From positions 1 through 64,000 of the forward strand of contig NZ_VKJP01000002.1 in NCBI RefSeq assembly GCF_007280575.1: a stretch of 64,000 nucleotides of DNA. The letters are read 5' to 3'. The position numbers were made by a program, and so were the translations under genes. Numbering within the stretch: position 1 is the first letter of the stretch; every line of letters begins with the position of its first letter. The notes beneath the pieces were generated by a model. It was given only the letters and a program-made list of their open reading frames with translations. It searched no databases and was not told the origin of the DNA. The stretch is from Streptomyces benahoarensis (GTDB lineage: Bacteria > Actinomycetota > Actinomycetes > Streptomycetales > Streptomycetaceae). Positions 45,009 through 64,000 of the stretch are shown here, in pieces.

Positions 45009-45306
45009 GTCTGCCTCCACTCAGGCGGTAGTCCATCCCGGTGTCGCATTGACTGTGCTACCGCATGAGGCATCCTTGGGCGCGCCCATGAAACTGTCCA
45101 ACAGATGTTTTCGTTATGAGAGATCTACTTTTTAGATCTACCCTGACCTCCGCTTTCCGTGAGGGGCCCCTCACCGGGCGGGCCCGGCGTCCGGCATCCG
45201 CGGGGCACCTCATTCGCGGAAGACCGCACCTGCTTCACTCCTCCTCGGGGCTGGGGCCAGGTGTGGTGCAGGATGATGAGTCGGATGAGGCGAGCAGGTG
45301 GTGCCC
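45009..45306. promoter_or_regulatory. Divergent promoter region with AT-rich direct repeats
   Basis: About 300 bp between the monooxygenase and PucR starts. The AT-rich stretch 45103-45141 contains AGATCTAC at 45121-45128 and again at 45134-45141. The 13-bp period and internal AGATCT palindromes make this a likely PucR operator. Confidence 0.5.
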
Positions 45307-46923: not shown

Positions 46924-47105
46924 CGGCCTGTTCGAGTGTCCCCTGCGGTGCCCCGGCGCGTTCACGCCGTCGTTGTCCCAGCCGCACTCCGGATCGCCGC
47001 AACACAGTGCGATGCGCACGATGACGGCACATCGCCCCCATCGCCATCATGGCTCCACCTGTAGCCCAACGGGGCATCGGGTGGATTCCATGGAAGGACG
47101 ACGGC

Positions 47106-48305
47106 GTGACAATCGGCAGTCCCCACAAGGCCACCAACCACACGCACCCGGCGGAGGGGAAAACGCCGCTCACGGAGGCCCGGATCGATCTCGCGGCGAT
47201 CCGCGACAACGCGGCCCGGCTGCGCGATGCGGCAGGTTCCGCCGAAGTAATGGCCGTGGTGAAGGCCGACGGCTATGGGCACGGCATGGTTCCCTGCGCC
47301 CGCGCGGCGCTGGCCGGTGGCGCGACGTGGATCGGCGTTGCCCGCATGCAGGAAGCGTTGATACTGCGCGCCTCGGGCATCAGCAGCCGGATCCTCGCCT
47401 GGCTGCTGGCCCCCGGTGACGACTGGACTTCCGCCCTGGCCGAAGGAATCGAACTGTCTGCCGGCGCCACCTGGGCGGTCGAGGCGGCGGCACAGGCGGC
47501 ACAGGCGGCAGGCCGCCCCGGCCTGCTGCACCTGAAGATCGACACCGGGCTGGGGCGCGGCGGCGCCTCGTCCGCCCACTGGCCTGCACTGGTCGAGGCC
47601 GCCTCACGCGCGCAGGCATCCGGGCATGTCCGAGTCGTCGGGATCTGGTCTCATCTGGCCCACGCCGACTCTCCTGGCCATCCCGCATGCGATCGGCAGG
47701 TGGAGAACTTCCGGGACGCGGTCCAGCTGGCACACAAGGCAGGGCTGAGCCCTGAAGTCCTGCACCTGGCCAACTCGGCCGCCACACTCACCCTTCCGCA
47801 CACCCACTTCGACCTTGTGCGCCCCGGGCTGGCGCTCTTCGGGCTGAGCCCGGTGCCGGAGTTGGCCGCCCCGGCCGCCCTGGGACTGCGGCCGGCCATG
47901 ACGCTCACCGCGCGGCTCGTCTCCGTCAAGCGCGTCCCCGCCGGACAAGGAGTCTCCTACGGCCACCGCCACCGCACCTCCTGCGAGACGACGCTCGGGC
48001 TGGTCCCGCTGGGGTACGCGGACGGCGTACCGCGGCACGCTTCCGGCACCGTCCCTGTCCTCGCCGCAGGCCGTTGGCGCACGGTGGCCGGCACGGTCTG
48101 CATGGACCAGTTCGTCGTCGACCTCGACGACGGCACGGCCGCAGTCGGCGACGAGGTCGTGCTCTTCGGCCCCGGAGACCACGGAGAGCCCGGCGCCGAG
48201 GACTGGGCGCGTGCCGCCGGCACCATCTCCCACGAGATCGTCACGCGCATCGGTGCCCGCGTACCGCGTTCGTACACCGATGGTTTCAGCCCGGACGAAC
48301 GCTGA
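47106..48305 (+). CDS. Alanine racemase (PLP-dependent)
   Basis: A 399-residue alanine racemase. The PLP lysine is in VVKADGYGHG near residue 60, the catalytic tyrosine in GVSYGHRH, and the conserved Arg in LVRPGLALFG. The later GTVCMDQFVVDL block is also present. It interconverts L- and D-alanine; a second, catabolic copy is plausible since it stands next to an amide-hydrolase operon rather than peptidoglycan genes. The GTG start has GGAAGGA upstream. The frame is open further upstream, but the extension lacks family similarity. Confidence 0.92.
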   Translation: MTIGSPHKATNHTHPAEGKTPLTEARIDLAAIRDNAARLRDAAGSAEVMAVVKADGYGHGMVPCARAALAGGATWIGVARMQEALILRASGISSRILAWLLAPGDDWTSALAEGIELSAGATWAVEAAAQAAQAAGRPGLLHLKIDTGLGRGGASSAHWPALVEAASRAQASGHVRVVGIWSHLAHADSPGHPACDRQVENFRDAVQLAHKAGLSPEVLHLANSAATLTLPHTHFDLVRPGLALFGLSPVPELAAPAALGLRPAMTLTARLVSVKRVPAGQGVSYGHRHRTSCETTLGLVPLGYADGVPRHASGTVPVLAAGRWRTVAGTVCMDQFVVDLDDGTAAVGDEVVLFGPGDHGEPGAEDWARAAGTISHEIVTRIGARVPRSYTDGFSPDER

Positions 48306-48552
48306 CGTCGACCCGCTCACCGTCCCTGACCGTGGACGGCGTGGAACGGGCCCGCGACCTGCCGGACGATGCCCCGGGGACGAGGGGGCCCGTCCCGCGT
48401 GCCGGATGTCGCGGTACGGGTGGGCGTACGGCTCAGACGTGGGTGAGACCTCCGCGGTAGGTTCCCGTGCCGCTGTGCGCCACTGCGAGCTGAGGAAGTG
48501 AGACCAAAGACCTCCCGTGCCCCGGACTGCGCCGCCAGGAAGGCCCGCGTCG

Positions 48553-48657
48553 AAGCTCTACGGCCACATCAAACCGATCAAGAAGCACACGCATGCCTGG
48601 AGTTCTGCCGTTACCTGCGCAGCCTCTACCGGCGAGAGGCGAGGATCGCGATCGTCG
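48553..48657 (+). pseudogene. IS630-type transposase relic
   Basis: Two adjoining frames spell KLYGHIKPIKK and then LEFCRYLRSLYRREARIAIV, the well-known stretch just before the last catalytic acids of IS630-family transposases. A frameshift separates the two parts, and the rest of the gene is absent. The relic joins directly to an IS1380-type relic. Confidence 0.65.
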
Positions 48658-48659
48658 GT

Positions 48660-48895
48660 GACGACTGGGCGATGTCGCTGGTCGCCGGCGTGCTCGCGGG
48701 TGCGGACAGCATCGACGAGGTGGGCGTGCTGCGGCACGGCGCGATGGCGAAGGCGTTCGCCGGGGTGCGGGCGCCGTCCACGCTGGGCAGTTTCCTGCGC
48801 GCGTTCACCAGGGGCACGTGCGCCCACTGCAGTCCGCAGCACGGCTGTTCACGTGCAACCTGGCCGCGCACTGCACCCCGCTGCCCGCCTCGTCG
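48660..48895 (+). pseudogene. IS1380-type transposase relic
   Basis: Reads WAMSLVAGVLAGADSIDEVG, VLRHGAMAKAFAGVRAPSTLGSFLRAFTRG and then, after a frameshift near 48818, VRPLQSAARLFTCNLAAH. This matches the N-terminal third of IS1380-family transposases. The catalytic core is missing. Sequence onward to about 49050 has no recognisable gene. Confidence 0.7.
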
Positions 48896-49071
48896 CCCTG
48901 CCCGCCCACGATCAAGGTCTCGCAGACCCCGCCACCGGGACGGCCACCCGGTGATCACCCGCACCTACCAGCAGAAATCCACCCGGTGGAGTCAGGCCGA
49001 AATTCGACTTATGACAAACGCCCGCCGTAGGTCCAGGGTCGGGACTGGACCCACGGCACGGCATCGGACGG

Positions 49072-49545
49072 TCAGAGGCCGAGGTCACTCAGGCCGGGGT
49101 GATCGTCAGGGCGGCGCCCCAGCGGCCAGTGGAACGTGCGCTCCGACTCCTTGATGGGAAGGTCATTGATGCAGGCGTAGCGGCGTCGCATCAGGCCGTC
49201 CTCGTCGAACTCCCAGTTCTCGTTGCCGTACGAGCGATACCAGTTACCGGAGTCGTCGCGGCATTCGTAGGCGAAGCGCACGGCGATCCGGTTCCCGTCG
49301 AAGGCCCACAGCTCCTTGATGAGCCGGTACTCCAGCTCTCGCTGCCACTTGCGGGTGAGGAGGGCCACGATCTCGTCGCGGCCGGTGGCGAACTCCGCGC
49401 GGTTCCTCCAGCGCGAATCCACCGTGTAGGCCAGGGCGACCTGCTCCGGGTCGCGAGTGTTCCACCCGTCCTCGGCCAGCCTGACCTTCTCGATGGCTGT
49501 TTCCCGGGTGAACGACGGGAAGGGCGGACGCGATTCGTCAGCCAT
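49072..49545 (-). CDS. DUF1348/NTF2-like (SnoaL fold) protein
   Basis: A 157-residue cone-fold protein. [36 protein letters not shown] and the repeated aromatic strand [31 protein letters not shown] are characteristic of DUF1348. The fold often binds small ligands; no activity is assured. ATG 49545 has AAGGAG upstream. Two identical palindromes upstream are shared with the neighbouring TetR gene, which is the likely repressor. Confidence 0.88.
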
Positions 49546-49590
49546 GTCGACTCCTTGCGCGTGCTGTTGATTCTCGGACGTACGTAGGGA

Positions 49591-49635
49591 CACCAGCACC
49601 AGCACCAGCACCAGCACCAGCACCAGCACCAGCAG
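49591..49635. repeat. Hexanucleotide microsatellite (CACCAG)7
   Basis: Seven tandem CACCAG units lie between the DUF1348 start and its operators. The repeat would fall in the 5' leader or beside the promoter, so copy number could alter expression. Confidence 0.9.
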
Positions 49636-49683
49636 AGAACGATCGTTCTCCTGATGCGCCACCCTAGGAGAACGATCGTTCTC
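49635..49683. promoter_or_regulatory. Two identical 16-bp palindromic operators upstream of DUF1348
   Basis: GAGAACGATCGTTCTC occurs at 49635-49650 and 49668-49683 (33 bp apart). It is a perfect inverted repeat and nearly the same as the sites in front of the TetR gene at 50507 and 50543. Confidence 0.85.
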
Positions 49684-49918
49684 ATGCAAGCGCAAAACGG
49701 GCCCCTTCACCAAAGGACGACGAACACGTACCACCGCGAGATCTCCGAACCGGGCATCGGTGCGCCGCGCCGCCGCATGCCCTGCAGGCGACGGCCACCA
49801 AGGGGCCGGACCGCTCACTGCCGGACAACGCAGTACGCCGACGGGGGCCGCGCACACCGGAACCGACCCGACGTCACCACGCCCGCAAAGACATCCGGGC
49901 GAGAGACGTACCAGCAGG

Positions 49919-50488
49919 TCAGGCGGCGGTACGAGAGACTTTGATCAGGGCCTGGGCCGCGTCGCGGGCCGTGCGGGCGGGCTCGGGAGTGCGGGAGATG
50001 GCTGCGGTGGTGATGGCGCCCTCGACGAGCAGGGAGAGCTGGTCGGCAAGGGAAGCCGGCAGCCCCGCGGCAGCCACCAGGTCAGCGACACGGCGCCGGA
50101 ACGCCGCCTTATGCTTCCGGGCGACTTCGGCCACCGCGGGCGAGGCGGCACCGAGCTCCCCGTAGGAGTTGATGAAGGCGCAGCCACGGTAGTCGGACTC
50201 GCTGAACCAGCTGTACAGCCAGTCGAAAACCGCCAGGACGCGGTCCTGTGGCGTACCGTCCACCGTGTCCACGTACCCGACCAGCCGCTGCAGCAGTTGG
50301 GCGTCGCGCCGACGCAGATACGCCTCCACCAGGTCACCCTTGGAGGGGTACAGCCGGTAGAGCCGCTTGAGGGAGACCCCCGAGGCGTTGCGGACCGCGT
50401 CCATGCCGACGGCCTGCACCCCGCGCTGGTAGTACAGCCCTTCGGCCGCATCCAGGACCCGCTCCCTGGCCGTCTCCTCTTCCAGCAT
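49919..50488 (-). CDS. TetR-family repressor with C-terminal LmrA/YxaF-like domain
   Basis: A 189-residue TetR protein. The helix-turn-helix is [28 protein letters not shown], residues about 30-58. The C-terminal half contains [26 protein letters not shown], typical of the TetR_C LmrA/YxaF-like type that binds small aromatic or drug-like ligands. Two palindromes in its own promoter and two at the DUF1348 gene predict a two-gene regulon with autoregulation. Confidence 0.92.
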
Positions 50489-50506
50489 CAGTACATCCCT
50501 TGCGCG

Positions 50507-50558
50507 AGAACCATCGTTCTCGTAGGGTACAGCAGGGCCTGGAGAACGATCACTCTCC
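50507..50558. promoter_or_regulatory. Two operator copies in front of the TetR gene
   Basis: GAGAACCATCGTTCTC at 50507-50522 (one change from the DUF1348 site) and GAGAACGATCACTCTC at 50543-50558 (two changes). Start-to-start spacing is 36 bp, close to the 33 bp at DUF1348. Confidence 0.8.
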
Positions 50559-51091
50559 GCCCTCCCCGGCAGGCCGTCGCTCCTGCGACCACTGCGGGCA
50601 GTCCGTCGTCATAGAGCTCGCGCCCCTTGGACCGTGCCCTACGCGACTCGGCCTCTCCTCACCCCGCGCCCTTCGCGTGCCATGGGGCCGTTCCGGCCTG
50701 CATCCATGGCATACATGGCGCCCCGAGGATGCGAAACTCAGCGGCTCAGTCCCCTACCCCGAGATCCGCTTCAAGTGGCTTGCCCACATATTCAGTGCGG
50801 GCAATCCGCGGCCCTGCGTGATCAACGCCGCGCATCCCGTGGGGCGCACAGCCCAGGCGGGCGTGGCGCCAGCGGGTGAACGGCGGGCCCGCAAGACACG
50901 GCAGCTCACCCTCGAGATCGTCAAACCCGCAGGCGGGTCGTCGAACGCACTCCGGCCTGACCATGCCTCATTCGAGCGTGATCAGGTTCGCGTGCGCCCG
51001 GGGGCGGCGTAGCCGCACAGCCGACGGGTTGGCCCGGTACGGCCCGGGCCCTGCTGATCAACTCCGAGGGCGCGGCGGCCCCGGGCCCGGG
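50559..51091. other. Gene-free region with a possible IS5-type transposase relic
   Basis: No intact gene is seen. At about 50890-50960 one plus frame reads TRQLTLEIVK and the next RRRVVERTPA, which resemble the LTLEIVKR and PRRWVVERT blocks of IS5-family transposases with the intervening part deleted. The rest was not recognised. Confidence 0.45.
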
Positions 51092-51952
51092 TCAGCGGCG
51101 GTACAGCCCGGCCCTGTCGGCAGCTTCCTCGGCGGCCTGCAGGTGGCGGCGGGCGTTCTCACCAAGGGTGTTGAGGACGCCGGCAACGATCGTCTCGGTG
51201 ACTGCCAGGGTCGGCACGAAGCTGTCGTAGGGGGAGGGGGCGGTGACCTGACTGGGCAGGACGACCTCGGCGTGCTGGGTGACCGGGGAGAGCCAGGTGT
51301 CGGTGAACAGGACGATGCGGCTGCCCTGTTCCTGCGCCATCTGCGCCATGACCAGTTTGTCGGCCTCGTAACGCCGGTAGTCGAACACGACCAGGACGTC
51401 GCGGCGGCTGAGCGTGGTGAGGACCGCGGTGCGTTCCACGTGGCGGTCGGGCAGGAAGCGCACGTCGTCGCGCAGCTGCATCAGATGCAGTCCGAGGTAC
51501 TGGGCGAGCAGGTGGGTGAACCTGCCGCCGGCCAGCGTGATCCGGCGCTTGGAATCGGCCAGGAGCTGGATGGCCCGTTCCAGGTCGTGGGGCGGCAGTT
51601 CAGCGAGCGTGCGGGTGACCGCCGTGCCGAGTATCTGATCCGCCGTGAGCTCGCGCGCCTGCGGTTCGCGGCCATATCCGGGTGTGGCGTACAGCGACAG
51701 AGGGGAGGCGTGACGTTCGTCGAGCTCGGTGCGCAGCGCAGCCTGGAAGTCGGGGAAGCCCCGGTAGCCGAGGCGGTTGACGAAGCGGATGACGGTGGGA
51801 GCGCTGACCCCTGCGCGTTCGGCGAGCACCGCGACGGTCTCGAAGCCGGCGGACGGGTAGCCGGCCAGCAGCACGCGGGCGACCTTGCGTTCAGCCGGGC
51901 TGAGATCCCCCAGCTTCTGCCGGATCTCCTCGGCGAGGGCGCTGGAGTCCAT
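51092..51952 (-). CDS. RpiR/MurR-family transcriptional regulator
   Basis: A 286-residue RpiR protein. The N-terminal helix-turn-helix is LSPAERKVARVLLAGYPSAGFETVAVLAERAGVSAPTVIRFVNRLGYRGFPDFQ (residues about 18-72). A SIS domain follows (about 125-265, RRITLAGGRFTHLLAQYLGLHLMQL and RRDVLVVFDYRRYEAD). SIS domains sense sugar phosphates or related ligands. ATG 51952 has AAAGG upstream. It follows the M20 peptidase/ABC operon on the same strand and is its likely regulator. Confidence 0.92.
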   Translation of the reverse strand: MDSSALAEEIRQKLGDLSPAERKVARVLLAGYPSAGFETVAVLAERAGVSAPTVIRFVNRLGYRGFPDFQAALRTELDERHASPLSLYATPGYGREPQARELTADQILGTAVTRTLAELPPHDLERAIQLLADSKRRITLAGGRFTHLLAQYLGLHLMQLRDDVRFLPDRHVERTAVLTTLSRRDVLVVFDYRRYEADKLVMAQMAQEQGSRIVLFTDTWLSPVTQHAEVVLPSQVTAPSPYDSFVPTLAVTETIVAGVLNTLGENARRHLQAAEEAADRAGLYRR

Positions 51953-52113
51953 CGTCGTGCCTTTCTGTCGTGAGCGAGATCGTTGTCCCGTCGAGCCTAG
52001 TGCCCGCCTCGCCACCGGCGGTGGCGCGGCGGGCACCAGGCAGGGATCACGGCGGCAGGCGTGGGCTCCCGCACCGGCCGGCGGGCACACCGCCGGTGCG
52101 GGAGGCCGATGGG

Positions 52114-53352
52114 TCAGCCGGTGCGGGCATCGCCGAGGCGGGCGATGAGGGAGGCGAGCAGGGCAATCCGGGCGGGAACGGATGTCACGTCGAGCCATTC
52201 CTCCGGTGAGTGGTCCGCCCCACCGACCGGCCCGAGCCCGTCCAGCACCGGCACACCGCATCCGGCGATGAGGTTGGCGTCACCGACGCCGCCGGTCGCC
52301 GCGGCGCCCATCGACAGGCCCAGCTGCTGCCCGGCCCGCAGAGCGTGCGCGAAGATGCGACGGGAAGCGGGCGTGTCCGGCATGGGCGGGCATACCTCCA
52401 GCTCCTGGACCTGAACCGTTGTACCGGGAACGGTGGGGCGGGCCGCGGCGGCTTCGATCGCGGCGCGAGCACGGTCCAAACCCGCGGCGGTTGGCGACCG
52501 CACCTCGACGCGCAGTTCCGCCTCGGGGCAGACGATGTTGGCCCGGCTGCCCGCGCGCACGACGCCGACGTTGACAGTCACGTCTCCCCCGTCGTCGTCG
52601 AGTCCCTCAAGGGCGAGGACCAGGTGAGCCGCCGCGAGGGCGGCATTCGCTCCCCGCTCGGGTTCGATGCCGGCGTGCGCGGCGCGGCCGGTGACGCGGA
52701 GCAGGTAGTCCGCCACGCCCTTGCGGGCGACGACGAGATCCCCGTTCTCCCGTGCGCACTCCAGTGCCAGCGCATAGTGCATGCCGTGCGCGGTGCGTTC
52801 GGTGACGGGGCGGCTGGCCGGCGATCCGATCTCCTCGTCCGGGGTGGCGAGGAACACCACCTCGGCGTAGTCGTCCAGGCCGGCGGCGTGCAGGATCTCC
52901 AGGGCGGTCAGGCCGGCCAGCAGCCCTCCCTTGTCGTCGCTGGCGCCGGGGCCGTGGGCCAGCGAGCCGGCGATGCGGAACGGCCGTGCGGCGGCTGTAC
53001 CGTCCTCGAAGACGGTGTCCATGTGGGCCGCCAGCAGGATCCGCCGGCCGCCGTCGGCCTGCGACAGGCGGCCGGCGTTGCGGGCCACCAGGACGTCACC
53101 GGACCGGTCGCCATGGGCCGGTGGGAGCGCGATCCGTTGCGTGGCGAAGCCGATCGCCTCCAGCCGGGCCGCGGTCCACTCGGCGACGAGGTTGACGCCG
53201 TCGGGGCTGTAGGAGCCGGAGTCGATCGACACCAGCTCGGCCAGATCCCGGAGGTAGCCGTCGAGCCGGGCTTCGGCTTGGGCCAGCAGCGCGGCCGTGA
53301 CGGCCGGGTCGTCGGCGGGTGTGTCGCGGTACTGCCGCGAGAGGGCGGTCAC
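52114..53352 (-). CDS. M20-family zinc carboxypeptidase (glutamate carboxypeptidase-like)
   Basis: A 412-residue M20 peptidase. The metal ligands are His in AAHMDTVFEDG, Asp in GPGASDDKGG, the catalytic Glu pair in PDEEIGSP, a further Glu in ALECARENG and the late His in GADHSPEEW. It resembles carboxypeptidase G2 more than the M20D enzyme elsewhere in the window. Its start overlaps the ABC ATPase gene stop by 4 bp. Together they suggest import of a short peptide or N-acyl amino acid followed by hydrolysis. Confidence 0.9.
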   Translation of the reverse strand: MTALSRQYRDTPADDPAVTAALLAQAEARLDGYLRDLAELVSIDSGSYSPDGVNLVAEWTAARLEAIGFATQRIALPPAHGDRSGDVLVARNAGRLSQADGGRRILLAAHMDTVFEDGTAAARPFRIAGSLAHGPGASDDKGGLLAGLTALEILHAAGLDDYAEVVFLATPDEEIGSPASRPVTERTAHGMHYALALECARENGDLVVARKGVADYLLRVTGRAAHAGIEPERGANAALAAAHLVLALEGLDDDGGDVTVNVGVVRAGSRANIVCPEAELRVEVRSPTAAGLDRARAAIEAAAARPTVPGTTVQVQELEVCPPMPDTPASRRIFAHALRAGQQLGLSMGAAATGGVGDANLIAGCGVPVLDGLGPVGGADHSPEEWLDVTSVPARIALLASLIARLGDARTG

Positions 53353-54119
53353 AGGACCTTGGACAGGAACGTGCGGGTGCGCTCCTGCTCCGGATCGGCC
53401 AGGACCTGGCGCGGCGGGCCGGATTCGACGACGACTCCTTCGTCCATGAAGACGGCGGTGTCGGCGACCTCGCGGGCGAAGGCGATCTCGTGGGTGACCA
53501 CGACCATGGTCATGCCGTCCGCTGCGAGTTGCCGCATGACCTGAAGGACGTCCCCGACCAGTTCCGGGTCGAGGGCGGAGGTGGGCTCATCGAAGAGCAT
53601 GAGCTTGGGTTTCATCGCCAGGGCGCGGGCGATGGCGACCCGCTGCTGCTGGCCGCCGGACAGCTGGGCCGGATAGTGGCCCGCCCGGTCGGCCAGGCCG
53701 ACCCGGTCCAGCAGACGTTCGGCATCGAGCCGCGCCTGTGCGCTGTCGGCACCGGCTACCTTGACCGGGGCATCCATGACGTTCTGAAGGGCCGTCATGT
53801 GCGGGAAAAGGTTGAAGCGCTGGAAGACCATGCCGATGTCGCGGCGGCGCCGGGCGACTTCCCTCTCCCGCAGCTCGTGCAACTTGCTGCCCTGCTGCCG
53901 GTAGCCCACGAGGTCACCGTCGACGGTCAGTCGCCCGGCGTCGACCTTCTCCAGGTGATTGATGCAGCGCAGGAATGTGGACTTCCCAGAGCCCGACGGC
54001 CCGAGCAGACAGCAGACCTGACCGCGCTCCACGGTCAGATCGATGCCCTTGAGGACGTCGAGCCTTCCGAAGTGTTTGCGCACGCCCTCGGCGTGCACCA
54101 TGGGGGTTGTCACGGTCAT
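53349..54119 (-). CDS. Polar amino acid ABC transporter ATPase (GlnQ/HisP type)
   Basis: A 256-residue ATPase. Walker A is [18 protein letters not shown] (the extended form is typical of polar amino acid importers), the Q-loop is [19 protein letters not shown], the signature is [15 protein letters not shown], Walker B is [14 protein letters not shown], and the H-loop is VVTHEIAFA. It overlaps the permease stop by 4 bp. It powers the importer formed with the next two genes. Confidence 0.94.
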
Positions 54120-55099
54120 CCCTTCTGGTGGTTCGGGCCGGATCCGAGGACGCGCAGGCGACTTGCGGACCCGGTGAGCAGACGCCGTAGCGGGCTGGTG
54201 CGCCCGCTTTGGGCGGTGCCGCGTCCGTAACGGCGCTCCAGCCAGGACTGCGGGAAACTCAGCAGAGTGACGAGGATCAGATACCAGATGCTGGCCACCA
54301 CCAGCAGGGGAATGACCTGGTAGTTCTGGGCGTACACGTCCTGGATGTTGGACATCAGGTCGTGCGCGGAGATCACCGACACCAAGGCGGTCATCTTCAG
54401 CATGTTGATCGATTCGTTGCCCATGGGCGGGACGATGACCCGCATCGCCTGCGGCAGCACGATGCGCCGCATGGTCAGCGCCGGCCGCATGCCGAGCGAG
54501 TACGCGGCCTCCGTCTGCCCTTCGTCGACGGACTGGATGCCGGCGCGGATGATCTCGCTGGCGTACGCGGCCTCATTGAGCCCCAGGGCCAGCAGCGCGG
54601 CCACCGCCGGCGTCAGCAGGCTGTTGGTGTCCGCCTGGAGGAAAGTGATGTGCGTGAACGGGACACCGATCATCACGTACTTGTACAGGGCCCCGGCATA
54701 GCCCCAGAAGATGATCTGGACAAGCAGCGGGGTGCCACGGAAGACCCATACGAACGCGGTGGCCAGGCTGTACAGGACGGGATTGGTCGAGCGCCGCATC
54801 ACGGCGATGAGTGTGCCGAGCCCCAGGGCGAGGACCATGGCCGCGGCGGTCAGCCACAGTGTCGTGACGAGGCCGTCGAAGATCAGGCCGGCGAAGAGGT
54901 AGTGGCCGACGATGTCCCAGTGCAGATTGGCGTTGTTGGCCAGCGACCCGATGAGTCCGGTGAGCGCGGTCACCGCCGCCACGGCGGCGATCCACCGGCC
55001 CCAGTGCCGCACGGGAACCACCAGGAGGTCCTGCGGCGGCGCCTCGTCGGACCGGACGGCGTCGGTGCCGGCGGGCACGGGTGCGGTAGATGCTGCCAT
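54116..55099 (-). CDS. Polar amino acid ABC transporter permease (HisM/GlnP type)
   Basis: A 327-residue permease. An N-terminal extra TM segment precedes the usual five-TM core. The EAA-like loop is the segment IRAGIQSVDEGQTEAAYSLGMRPALTMRRIVLPQAMRVIVPP. A single permease gene suggests a homodimer. ATG 55099 lies just before the SBP stop (1-nt gap). The last 40 residues are a charged tail. It is the channel of the importer. Confidence 0.93.
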   Translation of the reverse strand: MAASTAPVPAGTDAVRSDEAPPQDLLVVPVRHWGRWIAAVAAVTALTGLIGSLANNANLHWDIVGHYLFAGLIFDGLVTTLWLTAAAMVLALGLGTLIAVMRRSTNPVLYSLATAFVWVFRGTPLLVQIIFWGYAGALYKYVMIGVPFTHITFLQADTNSLLTPAVAALLALGLNEAAYASEIIRAGIQSVDEGQTEAAYSLGMRPALTMRRIVLPQAMRVIVPPMGNESINMLKMTALVSVISAHDLMSNIQDVYAQNYQVIPLLVVASIWYLILVTLLSFPQSWLERRYGRGTAQSGRTSPLRRLLTGSASRLRVLGSGPNHQKG

Positions 55100-55100
55100 G

Positions 55101-56054
55101 TCAGGACACCATCCCGTTCTTCGTGGCCTGCTTCACCGCGATCGACGCCCCGCCGTACTTGTCGCAGATCCTGGTGAGCGTGCCCTCGTCGATCAGCTGC
55201 TGAAGTGCCTTGCGGATGGCTTCGGTGAGCTGCGGAAGGTTCTTGCTGACGCCGATGCCGTTGGGCGTGGCTCCGTAGCCGGCGCTCGCCGAGGGGTCGT
55301 TGACCACCTCGAACGCGCCGCCGCCGTCGGCGGTCTTGGCCGTCCAACCGGCCGCGGGCTTGGTCAGCACATCGGCCACGACCTTGCCCGAGCGCAGCGC
55401 GAGCTGCGCGTCGGAGTCCTTGGGGAACGTCTGGATGCCGATCTGTGGCCTGCCCGCGGCTTTGCACGCGGCCTGGTGGGCCTGGAGCAGCTGAAGCTGG
55501 TGAGTGGCGGCCTCGACGCCCACGTTGCGGCCGCACAGGTCGTCCAGTTTCGCGATCCGGGCCGGATTGCCCTTGGCGACCAACACCCCCGAGCCGGAAA
55601 CCGAGTAGTCCACGAAGTCCAGGACCTGCCTGCGCTCCTTGGTGTCGGTCAGCGCCGACATGGCGACGTCGAACTTCCCCGCCTGGACGGCCGGCACGAT
55701 GCCGTCGAACTTCTGCGGCGTGAAGGCGAACCGCACGCCGAGCTTGGCGCCCAGCGCCTGCCCCAGGTCGTAGTCCAGACCGGTCAGGTCCGGCTTGCCC
55801 TCGGTGACGAACATCGCGAACGGCGCGTAGGGCGCATCGGTCGCCACCCGCACCGTGTCGCTGTCTTTGATGCCGGCCGGCAGCGCATCGTGGAGCGCCG
55901 CGTCTCGGGTGATCTGCGCCCCCGCGACGGTGACACGGGCGGGCGGCGCCGCCGTACTGGCGGCTTGACCGCCACACGCGGTGAGTGTGGCCACGGCCAC
56001 GGCCGGCAGAACGGCTGCGGCGGTCACATGACGGGTCAGGCGGGTGTGCACCAC
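55101..56054 (-). CDS. Amino acid-binding lipoprotein (solute-binding family 3)
   Basis: A 317-residue lipoprotein. Signal peptide lipobox LTAC (near residue 27) is followed by a solute-binding family 3 domain: RVATDAPYAPFAMF, TGLDYDLGQALGAKLGVRFAF, FDGIVPAVQAGKFDVAMSALTDTKERRQVLDFVDY. It captures a polar amino acid or small peptide. It heads the operon SBP-permease-ATPase-M20 peptidase. GAAGGA precedes the GTG. A palindrome about 90 bp upstream is the likely RpiR site. Confidence 0.93.
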   Translation of the reverse strand: MVHTRLTRHVTAAAVLPAVAVATLTACGGQAASTAAPPARVTVAGAQITRDAALHDALPAGIKDSDTVRVATDAPYAPFAMFVTEGKPDLTGLDYDLGQALGAKLGVRFAFTPQKFDGIVPAVQAGKFDVAMSALTDTKERRQVLDFVDYSVSGSGVLVAKGNPARIAKLDDLCGRNVGVEAATHQLQLLQAHQAACKAAGRPQIGIQTFPKDSDAQLALRSGKVVADVLTKPAAGWTAKTADGGGAFEVVNDPSASAGYGATPNGIGVSKNLPQLTEAIRKALQQLIDEGTLTRICDKYGGASIAVKQATKNGMVS

Positions 56055-56146
56055 GGTCGAATCCTTCCTCTGACGTACTGCCGGCGGGAAACGCCGACGA
56101 CGAGCACGAAGAGGAAATTACATGGAGCCCATGAGATTGGATAGAT

Positions 56147-56160
56147 GTAACGCACGTTAC
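56147..56160. promoter_or_regulatory. Candidate RpiR operator upstream of the importer operon
   Basis: TGTAAC-GCAC-GTTAC (56146-56160) has an inverted GTAACG/CGTTAC with a 2-bp spacer. RpiR-type sites such as HexR use TGTAAT...ATTACA, so the half-sites agree. It lies about 95 bp upstream of the solute-binding gene. Confidence 0.55.
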
Positions 56161-56776
56161 GGTCTGGTGAAGCGCTGCACCGGCCAGCCCTCCCCACTCA
56201 CCATGCGGCGATTTACCAGCCCCTCTTGAGAGAGCGCGAAGGCAGCCCCCCGGGCGGCGTTACACAACCTTGCCTCTGAGCAGAGTCTGTAATGCCTGTT
56301 TCCGCACAGCCTCCCCATCCCGACGCACCCGCGACACCCCGTCCGGTCTCGGATGCCGCCCATGTCCAGGACGCCACGACCGCCGGTGTGCGGTGAGCCC
56401 GCGGCATGACTTGTTCGAGCTGGTGAGCCAGCCCCGGCAGAGTCGGGTCCTGTGCCCTGAGCTGGGGCAGCGGTCAGGTGCCAACGGTCATGCGGTCATG
56501 CGGTGGGCGGCAGTGCGTCGTGGGTGCGTTGGGCTTGGGGATCACCGCGAAGCCGTCACCGGATGAGGTCCGACGCTCACCTGCCGGAACGCCCCGCTCG
56601 CCGCCTGCGGCATGCTGCGCCGGTGCACTGACGAGAACGACCGCACCGCTACCGTGAACCCCGTGTGCTCCCGAGCCATACCGGTGCCCTGAAGGTCTGC
56701 ACCTGGCCCCAGGGGCCGTGTGCTCGGGGCCGATGTAAGCCAAAGACGTGGATAGCCCCCCGCCGCGCCCGGCACA
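56161..56776. other. Long intergenic region without recognisable gene
   Basis: About 600 bp. No frame gives a recognised domain on either strand, and composition is slightly lower in GC than the flanks. It may be remnant DNA between the importer operon and the island at the right. Confidence 0.5.
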
Positions 56777-57031
56777 GTGGCCGCCGTGACGAGCAGTGAG
56801 CTGTGGACCCGTGCGACCGCCGACCGCTACGACGCCGAGGAGACCGAGATGTCCTCGGCCGCCGTCCTCGCACCGACCCTCGCCTTCCTCGCCGAACTCG
56901 CCGGAGACGGCCGGGCACTGGAGTTCGCCATCGGAACCGGACGAGTGGGCGTCCCGCTCCGGGAACGCGGCGTGCCGGTGGTGGGCATCGAACTGTCCGC
57001 GCACATGGCGTCGTCGGTCCCGCCCCCTCTC
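56777..57031 (+). pseudogene. 3'-truncated SAM-dependent methyltransferase
   Basis: The first about 85 residues match a class I methyltransferase: SELWTRATADRYDAEE, then FLAELAGDGRALEFAIGTGRVGVPL (SAM motif I) and GVPVVGIELSAHM (motif II). After 57031 the frame turns to unrelated sequence and stops near 57148. The catalytic half is gone, so it should be inactive. Confidence 0.7.
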
Positions 57032-57244
57032 ACTCGGTGCGGCCGGAAATCGGCCCTGCAGTCGTGGCCGCGCCAGCGCCACCCGAGAAACGACAAGCGA
57101 ATCCGGCGGTCGGGATTATCGATATTCGTGTCCACCAAACTCCGTTGATGCAACCCCAGGGTAGCGACACGCAGGCCCCTCTGGTCGGCGGGCGCCCGCC
57201 CAGGTAAGGCACCCTACGCTGCGGGCCGCCGAGGAGGCGTCGGG

Positions 57245-57391
57245 CTGTCTCGCGACGTTGCCGAACTGCGAGAAGTCGATGTCTACGCGGACTTTGCCGT
57301 GGGCTTGAACAACCTGGCCGTCCGGCCTGCCAGGCTCGGCCACTCTCTGGAGGCCAAGAGTGTGGCTGGCGAGGGCTACCTCCAAGACTGA
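57245..57391 (+). pseudogene. Possible tetratricopeptide-repeat relic
   Basis: One plus frame of 48 codons ends in TGA at 57389 and reads YADFAVGLNNLAVRPARLG followed by HSLEAKSVAGEGYLQD. The LNNLAVR...LG...EA pattern is that of TPR proteins of actinobacteria (such as those beside NB-ARC or caspase-like domains). There is no start or ribosome-binding site; it is probably a fragment. Confidence 0.45.
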
Positions 57392-57516
57392 CTACGTACA
57401 TGAGGCAACTGCGACATTGGCTGAGGAGCTGATATCAACGGGATACGACCGGAACAAGTGGACCGAGTTACCAGCGGCTTGGATATTCACTCCACCCGAG
57501 AGTCGAACGAGCCGAC

Positions 57517-59004
57517 TCAGGAGTCCACCTCAGACGTGCTCAGCCAGTCCCGTGCACTCCTGGCCGTAGCGCGCAACTGCGGGTGGTCACGCACGACCTC
57601 TCGTTGACGTTCGGCTGGCAACCCGAGTTCGTTCAGCAGATTCAGAATAACCACCGCAGTGGTCACATCCACAATGGCGATCAGCTCCTCGAACTCGTGG
57701 TTGGAGGTTCGCCCCTCGTGGGCCAGGTCGTTTCGCGCTCGAGTCGTGCGCCTGGCCCACCGGTCCACGTCAGGCACGAGCGTGGACAGCGCCTCCTGGT
57801 CGGGGCGGGCCGCGAGTGCGTACAACCGATCCCTGAGCGTCGGGTCATTGCGGAGGGAGCCACGGATCCGCTTCCTATGCTCCTCGGGCACCTGAGCCAG
57901 CATCGCTTCCCGCATCGGCTTGAAATCCTCCGGTGGGATCGGCGGTTCATCCATGTCAAAGCCACGGTGCAGCACCTCAGCCGCTCCCACCGCCATCAGA
58001 AGATTGTTTTCGACGTACCGTGCTGGCGCGTATCGAAGCCCCAGAACCATGTTCGTCGCGGGCTGCAGCCGCTCGTGCATGCCGCACCAGCGGGGAATGA
58101 TCTCCTCAAAGGGTAGAGCCTCGCACGTGAAGAACACACGATGATGAGCGACTGCCTTCGCATCGTGCTTCCCGACCACAGGGGGCGAGTACAGCACGTC
58201 AGCATTCCGCTCCAGCCGCGGCCCGCCGGACTCCGACACAGCATCGTCCAGGGCCAGTTTCAGGCGTACCCAGATCATGCCTGCAGCACGGTGAGTGGCA
58301 AGGGAGATCAGGTCTTGTATCAACCGGGCATAGCCAATCGCATCATTCAATGAGGACGCCTCGCGCCGGGTGATCTGCATGTACGCGGTATCACTCATGC
58401 GACCAACGGTTCCGCCCCGACGCTGGTCGAAGAACGGCAGCGTGTGGCGGTGCGTGAGCACGAACTCAGTCCCGTCGACTTCGGCCGACTGCGCCTCCAC
58501 GGGCTTAACGGAAATGGTGCCACTCCCATCAGGACGCCCGCCGGGCGCACCCAGGAACCCCTCCAGAACTGACGATGCCGCCCAACGCCCGAGGTCCTCC
58601 ACCGACACCTCTGTTGTGGAGAACGCCGCCTCGTCTTCACCGCCGACATGCGCCCCGATGAGTGCCGTCGTTGCCAAGACGGTCTGTTTGTCGGGGGTCT
58701 TTACCCGCGCGCCGAAGGTCCGCTGGCTACCGCTGGGAAGACAGCCGAAGAGGCTGATCTCACGCTGATCGGCGGCGCCATGGATCACACCCCACGTTCG
58801 GCGGCCCTCATGAACCATCAGCACGCCGGGAGCGGGCGTCGTCGTGACTCGGTCCTCGAACGCGCCGATCAAAGAGAGTGTCAAGCCGCACTCGGGCTCG
58901 TAGCGGAGCACGCCTGGCACCTGGTACCCAGGGTCTTCCGGCAGCCACCACAAACCAGCCCACTCGCCTGACGCGTCGAGATTCAGCGGGTCGCTGCCCA
59001 TCAT
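57517..59004 (-). CDS. ApeA-type HEPN anti-phage protein
   Basis: A 495-residue protein of two parts. The N-terminal part has the ApeA-NTD look: GEWAGLWWLPEDP, VPGVLRYEPECGLTLSLIGAFE and then the WGVIHGAADQREISLFGCLP strand set. The C-terminal part is an all-helical HEPN domain with RNDLAHEG near 424-431, the R-x4-H ribonuclease motif. ApeA was identified as a single-gene defence system thought to act by RNA cleavage and abortive infection. ATG 59004 has AGGAAAGG upstream. Recognition was by motif, not by search. Confidence 0.75.
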   Translation of the reverse strand: MMGSDPLNLDASGEWAGLWWLPEDPGYQVPGVLRYEPECGLTLSLIGAFEDRVTTTPAPGVLMVHEGRRTWGVIHGAADQREISLFGCLPSGSQRTFGARVKTPDKQTVLATTALIGAHVGGEDEAAFSTTEVSVEDLGRWAASSVLEGFLGAPGGRPDGSGTISVKPVEAQSAEVDGTEFVLTHRHTLPFFDQRRGGTVGRMSDTAYMQITRREASSLNDAIGYARLIQDLISLATHRAAGMIWVRLKLALDDAVSESGGPRLERNADVLYSPPVVGKHDAKAVAHHRVFFTCEALPFEEIIPRWCGMHERLQPATNMVLGLRYAPARYVENNLLMAVGAAEVLHRGFDMDEPPIPPEDFKPMREAMLAQVPEEHRKRIRGSLRNDPTLRDRLYALAARPDQEALSTLVPDVDRWARRTTRARNDLAHEGRTSNHEFEELIAIVDVTTAVVILNLLNELGLPAERQREVVRDHPQLRATARSARDWLSTSEVDS

Positions 59005-59255
59005 GACCACCTTTCCTGTCGTACGGAAGCGTGCGTTCGCAAGTTCGCGCACAGTGCTCTACCGAATTATCCCTGGGTTGTGCCGCGCGGAAGAAAACAG
59101 CCGGGGCTGGCGACAAGGCGCGGCTCCGGGTGCTGATGGAACCGCTCCCGGTCTGATAGAGGCTTTGTTGTGCCCCGGCTTACGTGGAGTCGATTTGCTG
59201 GACGCTGGGCGATCCAGGGGATTGTCCTCAGCTCGAACTCGATAGGTGTGAGCAT

Positions 59256-59291
59256 GCCGCCGGGTACGGGCTCGGGCCCGTACCCGGCGGC
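59256..59291 (-). terminator. Strong hairpin after the DUF2283 gene
   Basis: A perfect 16-bp stem (GCCGCCGGGTACGGGC with its complement) and 4-nt loop lie about 20 bp past the DUF2283 stop on the minus strand. Confidence 0.7.
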
Positions 59292-59310
59292 GTACTCATC
59301 GAGGGTCGCC

Positions 59311-59557
59311 TCACACCTCGCCAGCGCCCAGCCGTCGGACCACGTCGAGCACGTGCCACGGCAGCTTGGAGCGGGTGTCCAGCGCCTCAATGCCGATCAG
59401 GATGCCGTCCGCGTCGAAATCAAGGCTGATCATCCCGTTCACCGCGTCCGGGTCGCAGGGGTACACGCTGCGCCGACTGCGGATGTTCCCCCGCGTGGGT
59501 GAGATGGATGTAGGCCACGTTCGACACCGCGTCGTAGGTGATGTCGGCCTCCGCCAT
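59311..59557 (-). pseudogene. DUF2283-family protein with a frameshift in a G5 run
   Basis: ATG 59557 with GGGGAGG upstream starts MAEADITYDAVSNVAYIHLTHAG, the usual DUF2283 opening. The frame breaks at the run of five C on the plus strand near 59486-59490. In the next frame the sequence continues YPCDPDAVNGMISLDFDADG and then ILIGIEALDTRSKLPWHVLD to TGA at 59311. Deleting one base of the run restores an 80-residue DUF2283 protein. This could be a real mutation or a homopolymer sequencing error. DUF2283 genes often stand beside DUF4258 genes, as appears to be the case here. Confidence 0.7.
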
Positions 59558-59984
59558 GCTCAACCTCCCCGGAGACGTGGGTGTAGGCCTTCGTCACACC
59601 GGCCATCGCGGTGTTCATGTTCCCGTCGATGGTCTGGCGACGAACGCCTTGGGCTCGGGACCGTGGTCGCCCAGATTGTGCTGGCCGTCGCGGTAGTAGG
59701 AGAACGTTTCCCTGGCCAGAACCGCTTGACGTCCGCGTCCGAGACCCCCGCTGCCGAAGGCGCTGGATCGCGCGAGAGGTGAGGCTGCCGGCGGCGTCCG
59801 CCACGCACGTGGCCTCGTCGATGCCTTGGTAGGTGATCTCGCCGACGCCTTCGCATGTGCACGAGTCGGCGTGTCCGGTGAGGTAGCTGCCGCGGTTGTG
59901 CACCAGGACCGGTGTCGATCTGGCCCGCACGTAGACGGCACCGGCGGCAGCGCAGCACCAAGATCCGACTTGGAGCAGATTCAT
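59558..59984 (-). pseudogene. Relic of a Hint/DUF4258-type polymorphic toxin C-terminus
   Basis: Minus-strand frames together spell AVYVRARSTPVLVHNRG (59890-59940), the end of a Hint domain in polymorphic toxins. Next come AIQRLRQRG, VSDADVKRFWPG, ETFSYYRDGQHNLGDHG and QTIDGNMNTAMAGVT, in three different frames. The order fits a DUF4258 (BECR-like RNase) toxin domain. At least two frameshifts make it non-functional as read. Its first ATG overlaps the stop of the M48 gene by 4 bp, and the DUF2283 gene follows. Confidence 0.55.
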
Positions 59985-61174
59985 CGCCGCTCCAGATACG
60001 GCGCCAGGTGGTGCAGGCGCGTGTAATAGTCGGGGTGCGAGGACAGGAGCTTGCCCGAAAGACTCCGCCTACCGCCGCGAGCAGCGGTTCCCAGGTCGAT
60101 CCCAGCCGTCTTGCCGCACCCGGACAGAGCGGAAGCCGTCGCATGCCCGCCCTCCCGTTCCGTCGCCTGCATCAAGTGCAACACCTCGGCGAGCATCGGC
60201 CCGAAACCAGCCGCTACCGCATGGTGATCCGCCCTCAGTTCGGTCCGTCGGGTCACGGCGGCGAGCAGATACGGAGCGGCCACCAGCGTCAGGGTGAGGA
60301 ACCAGTACTCCCACGCGACCGCCAGCACGATGGCGCCCACCGCAAGAAACAATGCTGCCGCCCAGAAGCTCATGCGCCCACGGCCCACGACGGTGACGAG
60401 CCGGATCAGCCTCCGCACAGCGGTCCACGCAAACCGCCCCGGAACCGCATACCACTGCCCCAGGATCAACGACCACGCGTGACCACGGACGTGGTGCCCC
60501 AACTCATGAGCGAGGACGGCGGCCAGCTGACCATCAGACAGACGCTCCAGTGAAAACCGGGTGACGCCCACGATGTGACCCGCCGCGGCCAGGGCGTTGA
60601 GGTGATCGCTGTCCTCGATCCACAGCTCGTAGGCGCGGCCCTCTACACCCGTCCGCGCCGTCACTTCCCGCCACAGGGGTTCCAGCCGGTTCAATTCCCC
60701 GGGGGTGGGGTGACGGAGGTTCAGCAGATGACGGGCCAGGGCTCTCTCGGTGGGCCGGTGAAACGCCATGGCACCTGAACCGAGCCAGAGCAGGATCCCC
60801 AACCAGCCCGTGCCGGGGAACAGGAGGTGGGAGAGTGTCGCCACGATCACCAGGCCGGCGAGGAACGAGGGTAACTGCAGCAGTAGTTGACCCACAGCCG
60901 TGGCATCGATGCCCCGCTGCCGCTTGGCGAGGTGCACACGCCCACGACGGCCGAGACCCTCTTGCGGCGCGCGCTTCCCGGAACCGGACTGCGGTTCCGG
61001 CTTCCCGGCGGGGTGTGCGGCCTCGGACGGTGTCGCGCTGCCCGGGTACGGCGGTGGAGGCGGAATCGTCTCGTCCGGACCGTACGGGGACGGAAAGGGA
61101 ACAGCGGCCGGATAAGGCGGAGCTCCGGGCAGGGAAATGCGACCGGGGTGGGTGGAGTCGAAGGGAGTGATCAT
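59981..61174 (-). CDS. M48-family membrane metalloprotease with an in-frame TTA codon
   Basis: A 397-residue integral membrane protease. The first 75 residues are Pro-rich and cytoplasmic. Two TMs near 98-135 (LLLQLPSFLAGLVIVATLSHLLF...) precede the zinc motif AAVLAHELGHHVRGHAW (HExxH), and RRTELRADHHAV carries the third ligand Glu. Two further TMs lie between. It is like HtpX/Oma1 enzymes that cut membrane proteins. The Leu codon at 60872-60874 is TTA. ATG 61174 has AGGAACC upstream; ATG 61195 is possible. It is downstream of the Pycsar-effector-like gene on the same strand. Confidence 0.9.
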   Translation of the reverse strand: MITPFDSTHPGRISLPGAPPYPAAVPFPSPYGPDETIPPPPPYPGSATPSEAAHPAGKPEPQSGSGKRAPQEGLGRRGRVHLAKRQRGIDATAVGQLLLQLPSFLAGLVIVATLSHLLFPGTGWLGILLWLGSGAMAFHRPTERALARHLLNLRHPTPGELNRLEPLWREVTARTGVEGRAYELWIEDSDHLNALAAAGHIVGVTRFSLERLSDGQLAAVLAHELGHHVRGHAWSLILGQWYAVPGRFAWTAVRRLIRLVTVVGRGRMSFWAAALFLAVGAIVLAVAWEYWFLTLTLVAAPYLLAAVTRRTELRADHHAVAAGFGPMLAEVLHLMQATEREGGHATASALSGCGKTAGIDLGTAARGGRRSLSGKLLSSHPDYYTRLHHLAPYLERR

Positions 61175-61243
61175 AAAAGGTTCCTGTCTCGGCATACGGC
61201 CGGATCGTGACGACGCGGTAAGAAGCAGGCCGGCGCGGCGCGT

Positions 61244-61750
61244 TCAGCCGACGAGCCGCGCGAGGGGCAGAAGCACCACGCCCGCGCAGTAGGCAGCCAG
61301 ACCGGTGCGGATCCACCGGTGTTTGGCACCGACGATGCGGCTGTTCTGGGCCAGCGCCTCCAGTACTCCGTCGGCCTGGTGTGTCTCGGTGACGGCGAGG
61401 GCCTCGGCGAGCCGACCGCTCTCCGCGGCACGGCGGATGTCGTCGAAATACGTCAACGGCCGCCCCGGAGACCACCGGCTGGTGCCATACCGGGGCAGGA
61501 TGGCGAGGAGCAGGCATCCCAGTGCGCCGGCCAGAGCTGACATGGCCACCCACAACAGCACACTCCCGGGGGCGGAGAGCCCGGATAAAGACCATCCGCG
61601 GGCCGCGATCAGGCCACCGAGCAGGCTCACCGTCATGCTCATGGCCCCCAGAAGCAGCGACGCCTTGCTGTCCGCACGAGCTGTCTCGGAGCGCAGCTCC
61701 GTGAGCAGACGGGCTCCCACGGTCGGAGTTTGCACACCACCACTGCTCAT
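61244..61750 (-). CDS. Pycsar-effector-like (PycTM/DUF5706) two-TM protein
   Basis: A 168-residue protein. It opens with the helix ARLLTELRSETARADSKASLLLGA, the hallmark of the PycTM effector family, then TM1 (MSMTVSLLGGLIAARGW) and TM2 (LLWVAMSALAGALGCLLLAILPR). A cytoplasmic segment LTYFDDIRR follows, then LEALAQNSRIVGAKHRWIRTGL and a final hydrophobic helix. In Pycsar defence, such proteins open the membrane on binding cCMP or cUMP. No cyclase gene is in the window. ATG 61750 has AGGAGGGG and overlaps the SPFH-like gene stop by 4 bp. Confidence 0.75.
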   Translation of the reverse strand: MSSGGVQTPTVGARLLTELRSETARADSKASLLLGAMSMTVSLLGGLIAARGWSLSGLSAPGSVLLWVAMSALAGALGCLLLAILPRYGTSRWSPGRPLTYFDDIRRAAESGRLAEALAVTETHQADGVLEALAQNSRIVGAKHRWIRTGLAAYCAGVVLLPLARLVG

Positions 61751-62868
61751 CGCCCCTCCTCGGTGCTGTCGGCGGACGACCCGCCCCGCTGCTTGTGGAA
61801 ATGCACCGGGGCGCCGGTGGGCCCGACCCAGGGCAGGGAGTCCGGTGCGGGAGGACCGGAAGCGATACCGGGCACGTTGCGTGCGAGGAGCCCCTCCAGG
61901 ATCTCCACGGCCTGCTTGTTCAGTCCCGCACGCTGGTAGTCCTCCGGATTCCCTTCTTTCAGTACCTGGAGGGCGGCCTGGGACTGGCTCCGGATCAGCT
62001 CCAGTTGGTCCCTCTGCAAGCTCTCCATGACCATCCGGGAATCCTCGGGGTGCTGTGCCAGGTGCAGGGCCCACATCGCCACGCCGCCGTGCTGGAGGTG
62101 GTACTCGTAGTAGTGGACCTTCTCCCGCTCCAGCTTCCTGGCTGCCTCATCCTGGCGGCCCTGCAGCATGACCAGTTCGTGATCGTGCCGGGCCTGCTCC
62201 ACATCCCGCTCCGCCCTGAGCCGGTCCTCCCGCATCACCACGTCATGCGCCAGTCCCAACTGTTCGTCGCTGTACCGGATCCGGCGGAGCTCCCGCTGGT
62301 GGCCGATCGCCGCGTCGTCCGGCCTGAGCCGCACGGCGTACGACGTGCGCAGCCCCGCCTCCTCCCCCAAATCGCCTGCTCTGGCGAGAACTTGGTACAC
62401 GGCACGTTCGGCGTCCGCGCTCCGGTCGAGCGGGAAACCGCGGCTGACCGGGTACATCAGCTGTTCCAGCCGGCGCCTCAGGAAAGCGGGCACGTCCCGT
62501 TCTCCGCCGGCCACGAACTGTTGCGGCCTGGATACCTGCCAGGTCAGCTCCACCTCGGCGGTGAAGTCGAAGGCGTCGTTGTCGCTGGGCAGCAGCAGCG
62601 ACACGGTACAGGCGTGCACCCCCATATCGACCTCGTACACCGCGGTGTACCGCCTCGCGGCGAACAGGGAGCGCGTCGGCCGGTGGGGCGGCAGGTAGAC
62701 CTCGAACTCCCCTTTGTCCGTGGTGAATACCAGCGCGTTGTCGATCCGGCTGTAACCCCTTCGGTGGTCGAACCGGGACAACTGACGCACGGTCAATACC
62801 GGGTCGACCAGCTCGCTGTGCCGGTTCGCGCCCTGGTCCCAGTCGGGTTCGCGACGGAGTTCCGCCAT
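61747..62868 (-). CDS. SPFH/band 7-like protein with long coiled coil
   Basis: A 373-residue protein without TM segments. The first 150 residues resemble an SPFH/band 7 beta domain: ALVFTTDKGEFEVYLPP, VDMGVHACTVSLLLPSDNDAFDFTAEVELTWQV, FLRRRLEQLM. A long charged coiled coil follows (about 195-255, EQLGLAHDVVMREDRLRAERDVEQARHDHELVML), then helices and a Pro/Gly-rich tail. Such proteins scaffold membrane microdomains or proteases. It is coupled by a 4-bp overlap to the PycTM-like gene. Confidence 0.7.
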   Translation of the reverse strand: MAELRREPDWDQGANRHSELVDPVLTVRQLSRFDHRRGYSRIDNALVFTTDKGEFEVYLPPHRPTRSLFAARRYTAVYEVDMGVHACTVSLLLPSDNDAFDFTAEVELTWQVSRPQQFVAGGERDVPAFLRRRLEQLMYPVSRGFPLDRSADAERAVYQVLARAGDLGEEAGLRTSYAVRLRPDDAAIGHQRELRRIRYSDEQLGLAHDVVMREDRLRAERDVEQARHDHELVMLQGRQDEAARKLEREKVHYYEYHLQHGGVAMWALHLAQHPEDSRMVMESLQRDQLELIRSQSQAALQVLKEGNPEDYQRAGLNKQAVEILEGLLARNVPGIASGPPAPDSLPWVGPTGAPVHFHKQRGGSSADSTEEGR

Positions 62869-62938
62869 GGTTCCTCTCTCCTCACTCAGTGGTGTTCCGG
62901 AACTTCACGGCCCGTGGCCGCAGACGAGAGACGGCCCC

Positions 62939-64000
62939 TCACAGCACGCCCCGCAGACGGTCGGCCACCGCAGGTGGGGCATCCGCACCCCCGCGGCGAC
63001 CACGCAGAGTCATGAGCATGTGATCGAGGCGCTTGCGGTCCTCGTCGGAGCCGACCAGCGTCGGAAGCAGCATCGCCAGTTCCTGCTCGGCCTGCGGATC
63101 GCCGTCCGCCTCCAGGGCCCAGCCGGCCAGCGCCTTCAACGCGTCGGCGGTGTACCCCAGATCGCCCAGGGCGGTCCGCCACAGCAGGGACAGCTGCTGC
63201 GCGTCCTCGGCCGGGCCCGCCGAGGCGGCCTCCGCGTACCACCGCAGCATCAGCCGGCTGTCGGCGCGCGTGCAGGCCAGGACGAACGCGTGCAGCGCCA
63301 GTCGGCGGCCGGAAGGGCCGTCCCGGATGATGTCGAACAGGCCCCGCAGCACCCGGCTGCGCACCAGCGCCGATTCGTCGCTCAGCAGCAGCGCGGCGGA
63401 CTCGGCGATGTGCTGCGCCTCCTGCTCGTCGTCCCCGGTGCGAGCGGCTTCCGCCAACGCCTTCAGGGCTTCGTCGGGCATCCTGGCGCCCACCAGGGCG
63501 TAGGCCCGGATGGCTGTCCAGCGAAGCCGTGGTCCGGCTTCCTCGTCGCACCAGGAGCGCAGGATCTGCGGGATGTTCGGGGCACCGATGGCATGCGCCG
63601 CCGCGAGGGCGTTGGCGGCGACGAGGCAGTCGCGGTACACCTTCGACTTCGCCCAGCCCTCGATGAGCAGTGCCATCGCCGACGGCAGGTCGGTCTGGGC
63701 GAGCACCGCGGCCGTCACTGCCGCGCGGGTACGTACCAGCGGTCGGCCGTCCTGTGCGAGCTTCCGGAGCCACGCGAGCAGAGCAGGCCGCGCGGAGGGG
63801 TGACTCGTCCAGACCTCGCGGAGGACCTCTGCAGAGGTTCTGGGCTCCTGGAATCGGGCCATGCGCTGGAACACGGGGCCCCACTCGGTGTGCTCCTCCT
63901 TCCGGTACTCGACGGCTCGGGCCAGGCGCAGGCGTTTGGTGATGGACGTCCCAAAGATGCCGACCCGGGGCTCCATCCCGGCGTCCTCGGTTCTCTGGAA
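62939..64000 (-). CDS. HEAT/ARM-like helical-repeat protein (continues past the right edge)
   Basis: The minus frame is open from 64000 inward, so the N-terminus lies beyond the window; the ATG at 63976 may be internal. The visible about 350 residues are leucine/alanine-rich paired helices in repeats of roughly 35-40 residues (RTRAAVTAAVLAQTDLPSAM, RLRWTAIRAYALVGA, RSRVLRGLFDIIRDG). This looks like a HEAT-type scaffold, as on the C-terminal side of large actinobacterial NTPases. It is 70 bp upstream of the SPFH-like gene and probably heads or joins the same operon. Confidence 0.65.
   Translation of the reverse strand, partial: FQRTEDAGMEPRVGIFGTSITKRLRLARAVEYRKEEHTEWGPVFQRMARFQEPRTSAEVLREVWTSHPSARPALLAWLRKLAQDGRPLVRTRAAVTAAVLAQTDLPSAMALLIEGWAKSKVYRDCLVAANALAAAHAIGAPNIPQILRSWCDEEAGPRLRWTAIRAYALVGARMPDEALKALAEAARTGDDEQEAQHIAESAALLLSDESALVRSRVLRGLFDIIRDGPSGRRLALHAFVLACTRADSRLMLRWYAEAASAGPAEDAQQLSLLWRTALGDLGYTADALKALAGWALEADGDPQAEQELAMLLPTLVGSDEDRKRLDHMLMTLRGRRGGADAPPAVADRLRGVL

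Follow-up and report, generated by a model that had tools for sequence, protein, structure and literature searches.

An intact ApeA-family gene in a defence island of Streptomyces benahoarensis

The window analysed here, a stretch of 64,000 nucleotides from a Streptomyces benahoarensis contig, carries on its minus strand a gene, apeA (57517..59004, stop included; 495 aa), whose product we assign to the ApeA family on the strength of its domain content, its motif and its full-length homology. The gene is an intact new ApeA member in a known sort of place, a real defence island, and the range of the family is unchanged by it. From its sequence, we think it highly probable that it works as a functional one-gene ApeA anti-phage system. 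A conserved actinobacterial ApeA clade, whose members are 59–91% identical to the window copy where the match spans at least 410 residues, is now delimited and provides a candidate for testing against Streptomyces phages.

The gene is defined by an open reading frame call, by domain matches and by alignment; its frame is uninterrupted and its motif intact. The longest open frame begins at a GTG at 59052 and runs on the minus strand to the stop that ends at 57517 (511 aa). That GTG could also serve as the start, but the ATG at 59004, further downstream, is favoured because a AGGAAAGG stretch, read by eye, stands just 5' of it and because protein conservation across the aligned clade sets in just past it. 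The GC3 of apeA is 0.75, compared with 0.83–0.97 for 42 of 46 frames in the first 56 kb, which came from a rough caller with frames below 0.7 discarded.

The first-pass annotation had taken the N-terminal domain and a C-terminal R-x4-H HEPN motif to point to ApeA, and a search with the ApeA N-terminal and HEPN profiles bears this out: both Pfam domains match near full length and well above their cut-offs (25.5 bits for ApeA_NTD1, 24.4 bits for HEPN_Apea). ApeA_NTD1 (PF18862), presumed to be the sensing or regulatory part, occupies 58087..58965 on the minus strand (E 4.5e-52, profile positions 1–271 of 271), and HEPN_Apea (PF18739), presumed to be the RNase part, occupies 57610..57999 on the same strand (E 4.3e-23, positions 1–135 of 136). 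Scored on the 495-aa protein, the same profile spans fall on residues 14–306 (E 7.3e-52, 177 bits) and 336–465 (E 1.7e-22, 80.8 bits), and hmmscan of the 511-aa frame gave E 8e-52 with 176.8 bits and E 1.8e-22 with 80.7 bits, respectively. The motif, R424-N-D-L-A-H429 (57718..57735, minus strand), has its arginine and histidine at the residues originally named; a second R-x4-H, starting at R305, lies outside the HEPN domain, and the protein has no others. In the whole host genome the window gene is the single HEPN_Apea match, and none of 14 control genomes contained one. Among PADLOC models, the 511-aa frame matched PDC-S58 (E 1.3e-40) and Cas13-ApeA (E 3.6e-15). PDC-S58, which we take to be the name of a single-gene candidate defence family, resembles the window protein in that one model matches its residues 14–473 (E 1.1e-40), although the PADLOC label carries no function description. 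An NCBIfam search of the 511-aa frame gave no match, a single-sequence search of solved structures with the window protein returned nothing, and a 6-row profile search of solved structures returned two matches at E 1.4 that are not meaningful. The AlphaFold model built from a 7-row alignment (mean pLDDT 37.9, pTM 0.26) is too poor and therefore of no use for a fold search.

Family membership was followed across an alignment of 18 rows, picked by hand from the search hits and comprising the window copy, seven close and three distant actinobacterial copies, one haloarchaeal copy and six proteobacterial copies; among the proteobacterial rows are those of E. coli isolate SC418 (L058) and of a Klebsiella plasmid (L059), while the truncated L029–L032 and the Streptomyces copies L004, L006 and L007 are among those left out, as are matches from Pseudomonas, Bartonella, Synechococcus, Bacillus and Paenibacillus. 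Every one of the 18 rows, the window copy included, matches both Pfam domains and the three leading PADLOC models, PDC-S58 among them. Thirteen columns are invariant, including W306, E343, H346, R424 and H429, with nine in residues 14–306 and four in residues 336–465, and R424 and H429 are also invariant in a separate 6-row alignment that holds L004, L006 and L007. When the close-clade profile (7 rows) was compared by hhalign with a proteobacterial profile (6 rows, led by an E. coli protein that may differ from the one originally tested), the probability was 99.7% over 441 columns. The window protein thus resembles ApeA in having both domains in the same order, a similar length, the R-x4-H motif, an apparently single-gene organisation and a defence-island setting, but it differs in being about 20% identical to the E. 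coli form recovered here; identity to the Klebsiella form is 17%, and at such distances the cue and the target may differ. A Photobacterium DNA query found a match in 1 of 5426 E. coli genomes.

ApeA was reportedly recognised as a defence system by Gao et al. in 2020. RnlA, Cas13 and Csm6 are HEPN RNases carrying R-x4-H, and the window protein is like them in this class and motif; they differ from ApeA in their partner domains and triggers. Passages of two papers (PMC7699616, PMC10952713) present ApeA as a defence system, a passage of a third (PMC13405049) groups it with the HEPN RNases RnlA, Cas13 and Csm6, and a section of a 2013 study (PMC3710099) assigns the family to 'Bacteria > Archaea' and describes ApeA-NTD1 as an abundant domain made mostly of beta strands. 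By analogy with the ApeA family, the N-terminal domain would detect a product of phage infection, and detection would switch on the C-terminal HEPN domain; this domain would then work as a dimeric RNase, with R424 and H429 as its catalytic residues, and the cutting of RNA would stop the infected cell or the phage, a form of abortive infection. The cue would probably be deoxydinucleotides, a term found in the title of a 2026 ApeA preprint in the reference list of PMC13405049, a title that does not speak of the window protein.

The surroundings agree with the original claim that the gene sits in an island with other candidates. In the window, apeA has as neighbours, all on the minus strand, an M48 peptidase (59981–61195) and a PycTM-type membrane protein (within 61244–62074), and a protein of 373 aa with no Pfam match, followed by a HEAT-repeat protein, also lies within 59981–63976; no cyclase partner for PycTM was seen among the proteins scanned. 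Between apeA and the peptidase, frames at 59439–59984 look by eye like the decayed C-terminus of a secreted toxin. Beyond the window end on the same contig are a full Wadjet set in the order JetD-JetC-JetB-JetA (67234–75756; PADLOC JetA2, JetB2, JetC2 and JetD2 models), a PD-Lambda-1 protein (76128–77534; PADLOC) and a frame of 2008 aa (86596–92622) that contains DinG-like and DEAD helicase parts; of 10 frames scanned in this region, 4 had no PADLOC match. Near the relatives of apeA, 7 of 10 hand-picked neighbours matched a PADLOC model. Of the other three, one has a T5orf172 domain (L025:9593-10783), one has an N-terminal NACHT-associated domain plus an AAA domain (L026:4147-7272) and one is a Mutator-family transposase (L029:9248-10558). 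Notable among the scanned neighbours are two from L025, a Tmn-like ATPase and an enzyme of MmeI type IIG, along with a DUF4238 protein (L027) and TPR proteins, one of them with NB-ARC (L023, Streptomyces endophytica). At L024, a relaxase/helicase frame lies some 5 kb upstream of apeA.

It had also been proposed that finding ApeA in an actinobacterium would broaden its range, and here the genomes speak otherwise: ApeA is already present in Actinomycetota genomes and on plasmids, and its domains are widespread and have existing models, so the window gene does not extend the range. With the host counted, ApeA_NTD1 occurs in 10 of 199 Streptomyces genomes, near full length in six and partial or fragmentary in the other four (G095, G022, G063 and G029), and, across the Actinomycetota, in 12 of 396 genomes, representing 10 of 236 genera; similarity to the window protein itself was found in 8 of 199 relatives, again counting the host. 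A protein search recovered relatives in 20 plasmid records (nine Rhodococcus, four haloarchaeal, four proteobacterial and one each from Gordonia, Curtobacterium and Synechococcus), and in 19 of these a 'HEPN domain-containing protein' feature underlies the match. The phage records searched gave no match, and viral contigs gave none for the actinobacterial clade and one relative of the E. coli form. In the open-licence literature we found no study of actinobacterial ApeA or of its linkage to ychF, which is weak evidence of absence, and the part of the main text of an Actinobacteria survey (PMC10482375) that was covered holds no word starting with 'Ape'.

ApeA is patchily distributed, and the identities between copies, together with the tree, suggest horizontal transfer: the window copy groups with that of S. 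endophytica (support 99/100) and another Streptomyces copy, G156, groups with copies of Paenarthrobacter, Saccharothrix, Saccharopolyspora and Corynebacterium (support 98/100). The S. endophytica protein (L023) is the closest relative found, at 91% identity, followed by those of Promicromonospora (76%), Paenarthrobacter (71%) and Saccharothrix (68%); G156, at 68%, is no nearer to the window copy than is the Saccharothrix copy. By blastn, the window and L023 share 57467..59212 on the minus strand at 89.8% DNA identity, a stretch of about 1.75 kb that consists of the gene with some 50 bp of 3' and 208 bp of 5' flank, and the rest of 45001–64000 has no match in L023. Against 11 clade loci, too, the gene region is the one part of 45001–64000 that matches, and the genomic comparison revealed no partner gene common to the window and these loci. 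The shared DNA ends close to the gene, which implies that the gene travels, or is retained, by itself. This bears on the possibility that apeA acts alone as a HEPN toxin, or as a stabilisation (addiction) gene, and is not mainly anti-phage, as might be imagined from the plasmid relatives and from HEPN families that are toxins with an antitoxin, such as RnlA with RnlB (in a section of PMC3710099). We regard it as improbable, given that the relatives have no partner gene in common and that invariant columns are as dense in the N-terminal domain as in the HEPN part.

The reading of apeA as an anti-phage system is also preferred to the view that the copy is inactive, either silent or in decay. Truncated kin do exist: L029 is cut short, L030 has a 140-aa ApeA match, and L031 and L032 hold 5' apeA relics of 53 and 25 aa. 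The window copy, however, has its full length and an intact motif, and its dN/dS relative to the closest relative is 0.21 by a simple Nei-Gojobori count, so that decay seems very unlikely. Across four relatives the values are 0.21, 0.18, 0.15 and 0.14, and apeA is under purifying selection.

In 7 of the 11 close-clade loci (L023–L032 and G156, the last as L093), ychF, the gene of a translation-associated ATPase, lies upstream of apeA on the same strand, at most 3.9 kb away and with 0–3 frames between. The seven (G156, L025, L027, L028, L029, L031 and L032) come from Streptomyces (three), Paenarthrobacter, Saccharopolyspora, Corynebacterium and Schaalia, and two of them, L031 and L032, hold apeA relics only; no upstream ychF was seen in L023, L024, L030 or L026, the last with just 1.8 kb of upstream DNA. 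At 25 other ApeA loci (L054–L062 and L094–L109) ychF was found in none at E 1e-3, unfiltered; 18 of these have at least 3.9 kb of upstream DNA, the shorter being L056, L059–L062, L103 and L109, and seven (L059, L098, L101, L104, L106, L107 and L108), which had been collected as ApeA matches, did not align with the window ApeA in the ychF run. The ychF of the host itself lies on a different contig, with no apeA within 1.5 kb after it. Downstream of 30 Streptomyces ychF loci, one per genome with the host included (27 stretches of 1497 bases and three shorter), an apeA relic was present in one (G022, known beforehand), and occupation of this site by apeA is accordingly rare. Common ancestry, a hotspot and recombination through the conserved ychF gene would each fit the link. 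It is tempting to speculate that the region after ychF is an actinobacterial hotspot for defence genes, or that ApeA of this clade is tied to translation through YchF, but we hold this tentatively and think it rather unlikely. The linkage could be used as a landmark for finding more apeA copies. That apeA might be a host RNA-processing enzyme, as the nearby ychF in part of the clade could hint, is barely credible for a gene found patchily, in 10 of 199 Streptomyces genomes, and not near ychF in its window and L023 copies.

In the search for an integration site, no tRNA was found within the window to mark one, and direct repeats in 56200–61300 are limited to imperfect two-copy repeats, 72–79% alike. 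Flank DNA at 56100–57400 matches 60 of 100 genomes, with strong matches in about 20 that are confined to some 270 bases near 56750–57010, and this flank therefore reveals no empty site. The piece near 56750–57010 recurs in about 20 of the 100 genomes at 80–94% identity, and a short frame at 56777–57148 looks by eye like a truncated methyltransferase. Two of the truncated relatives end in distinct ways. In Schaalia (L029, 8001–10558) the apeA match stops at residue 410 (base 9230), and 15 bases past its end a Mutator-family transposase frame ends on the opposite strand. In Streptomyces blattellae (L031, 8001–8264) the first 53 apeA codons run in frame into an unrelated tail, which by eye looks like the end of a short-chain dehydrogenase, making an 86-aa frame right after ychF.
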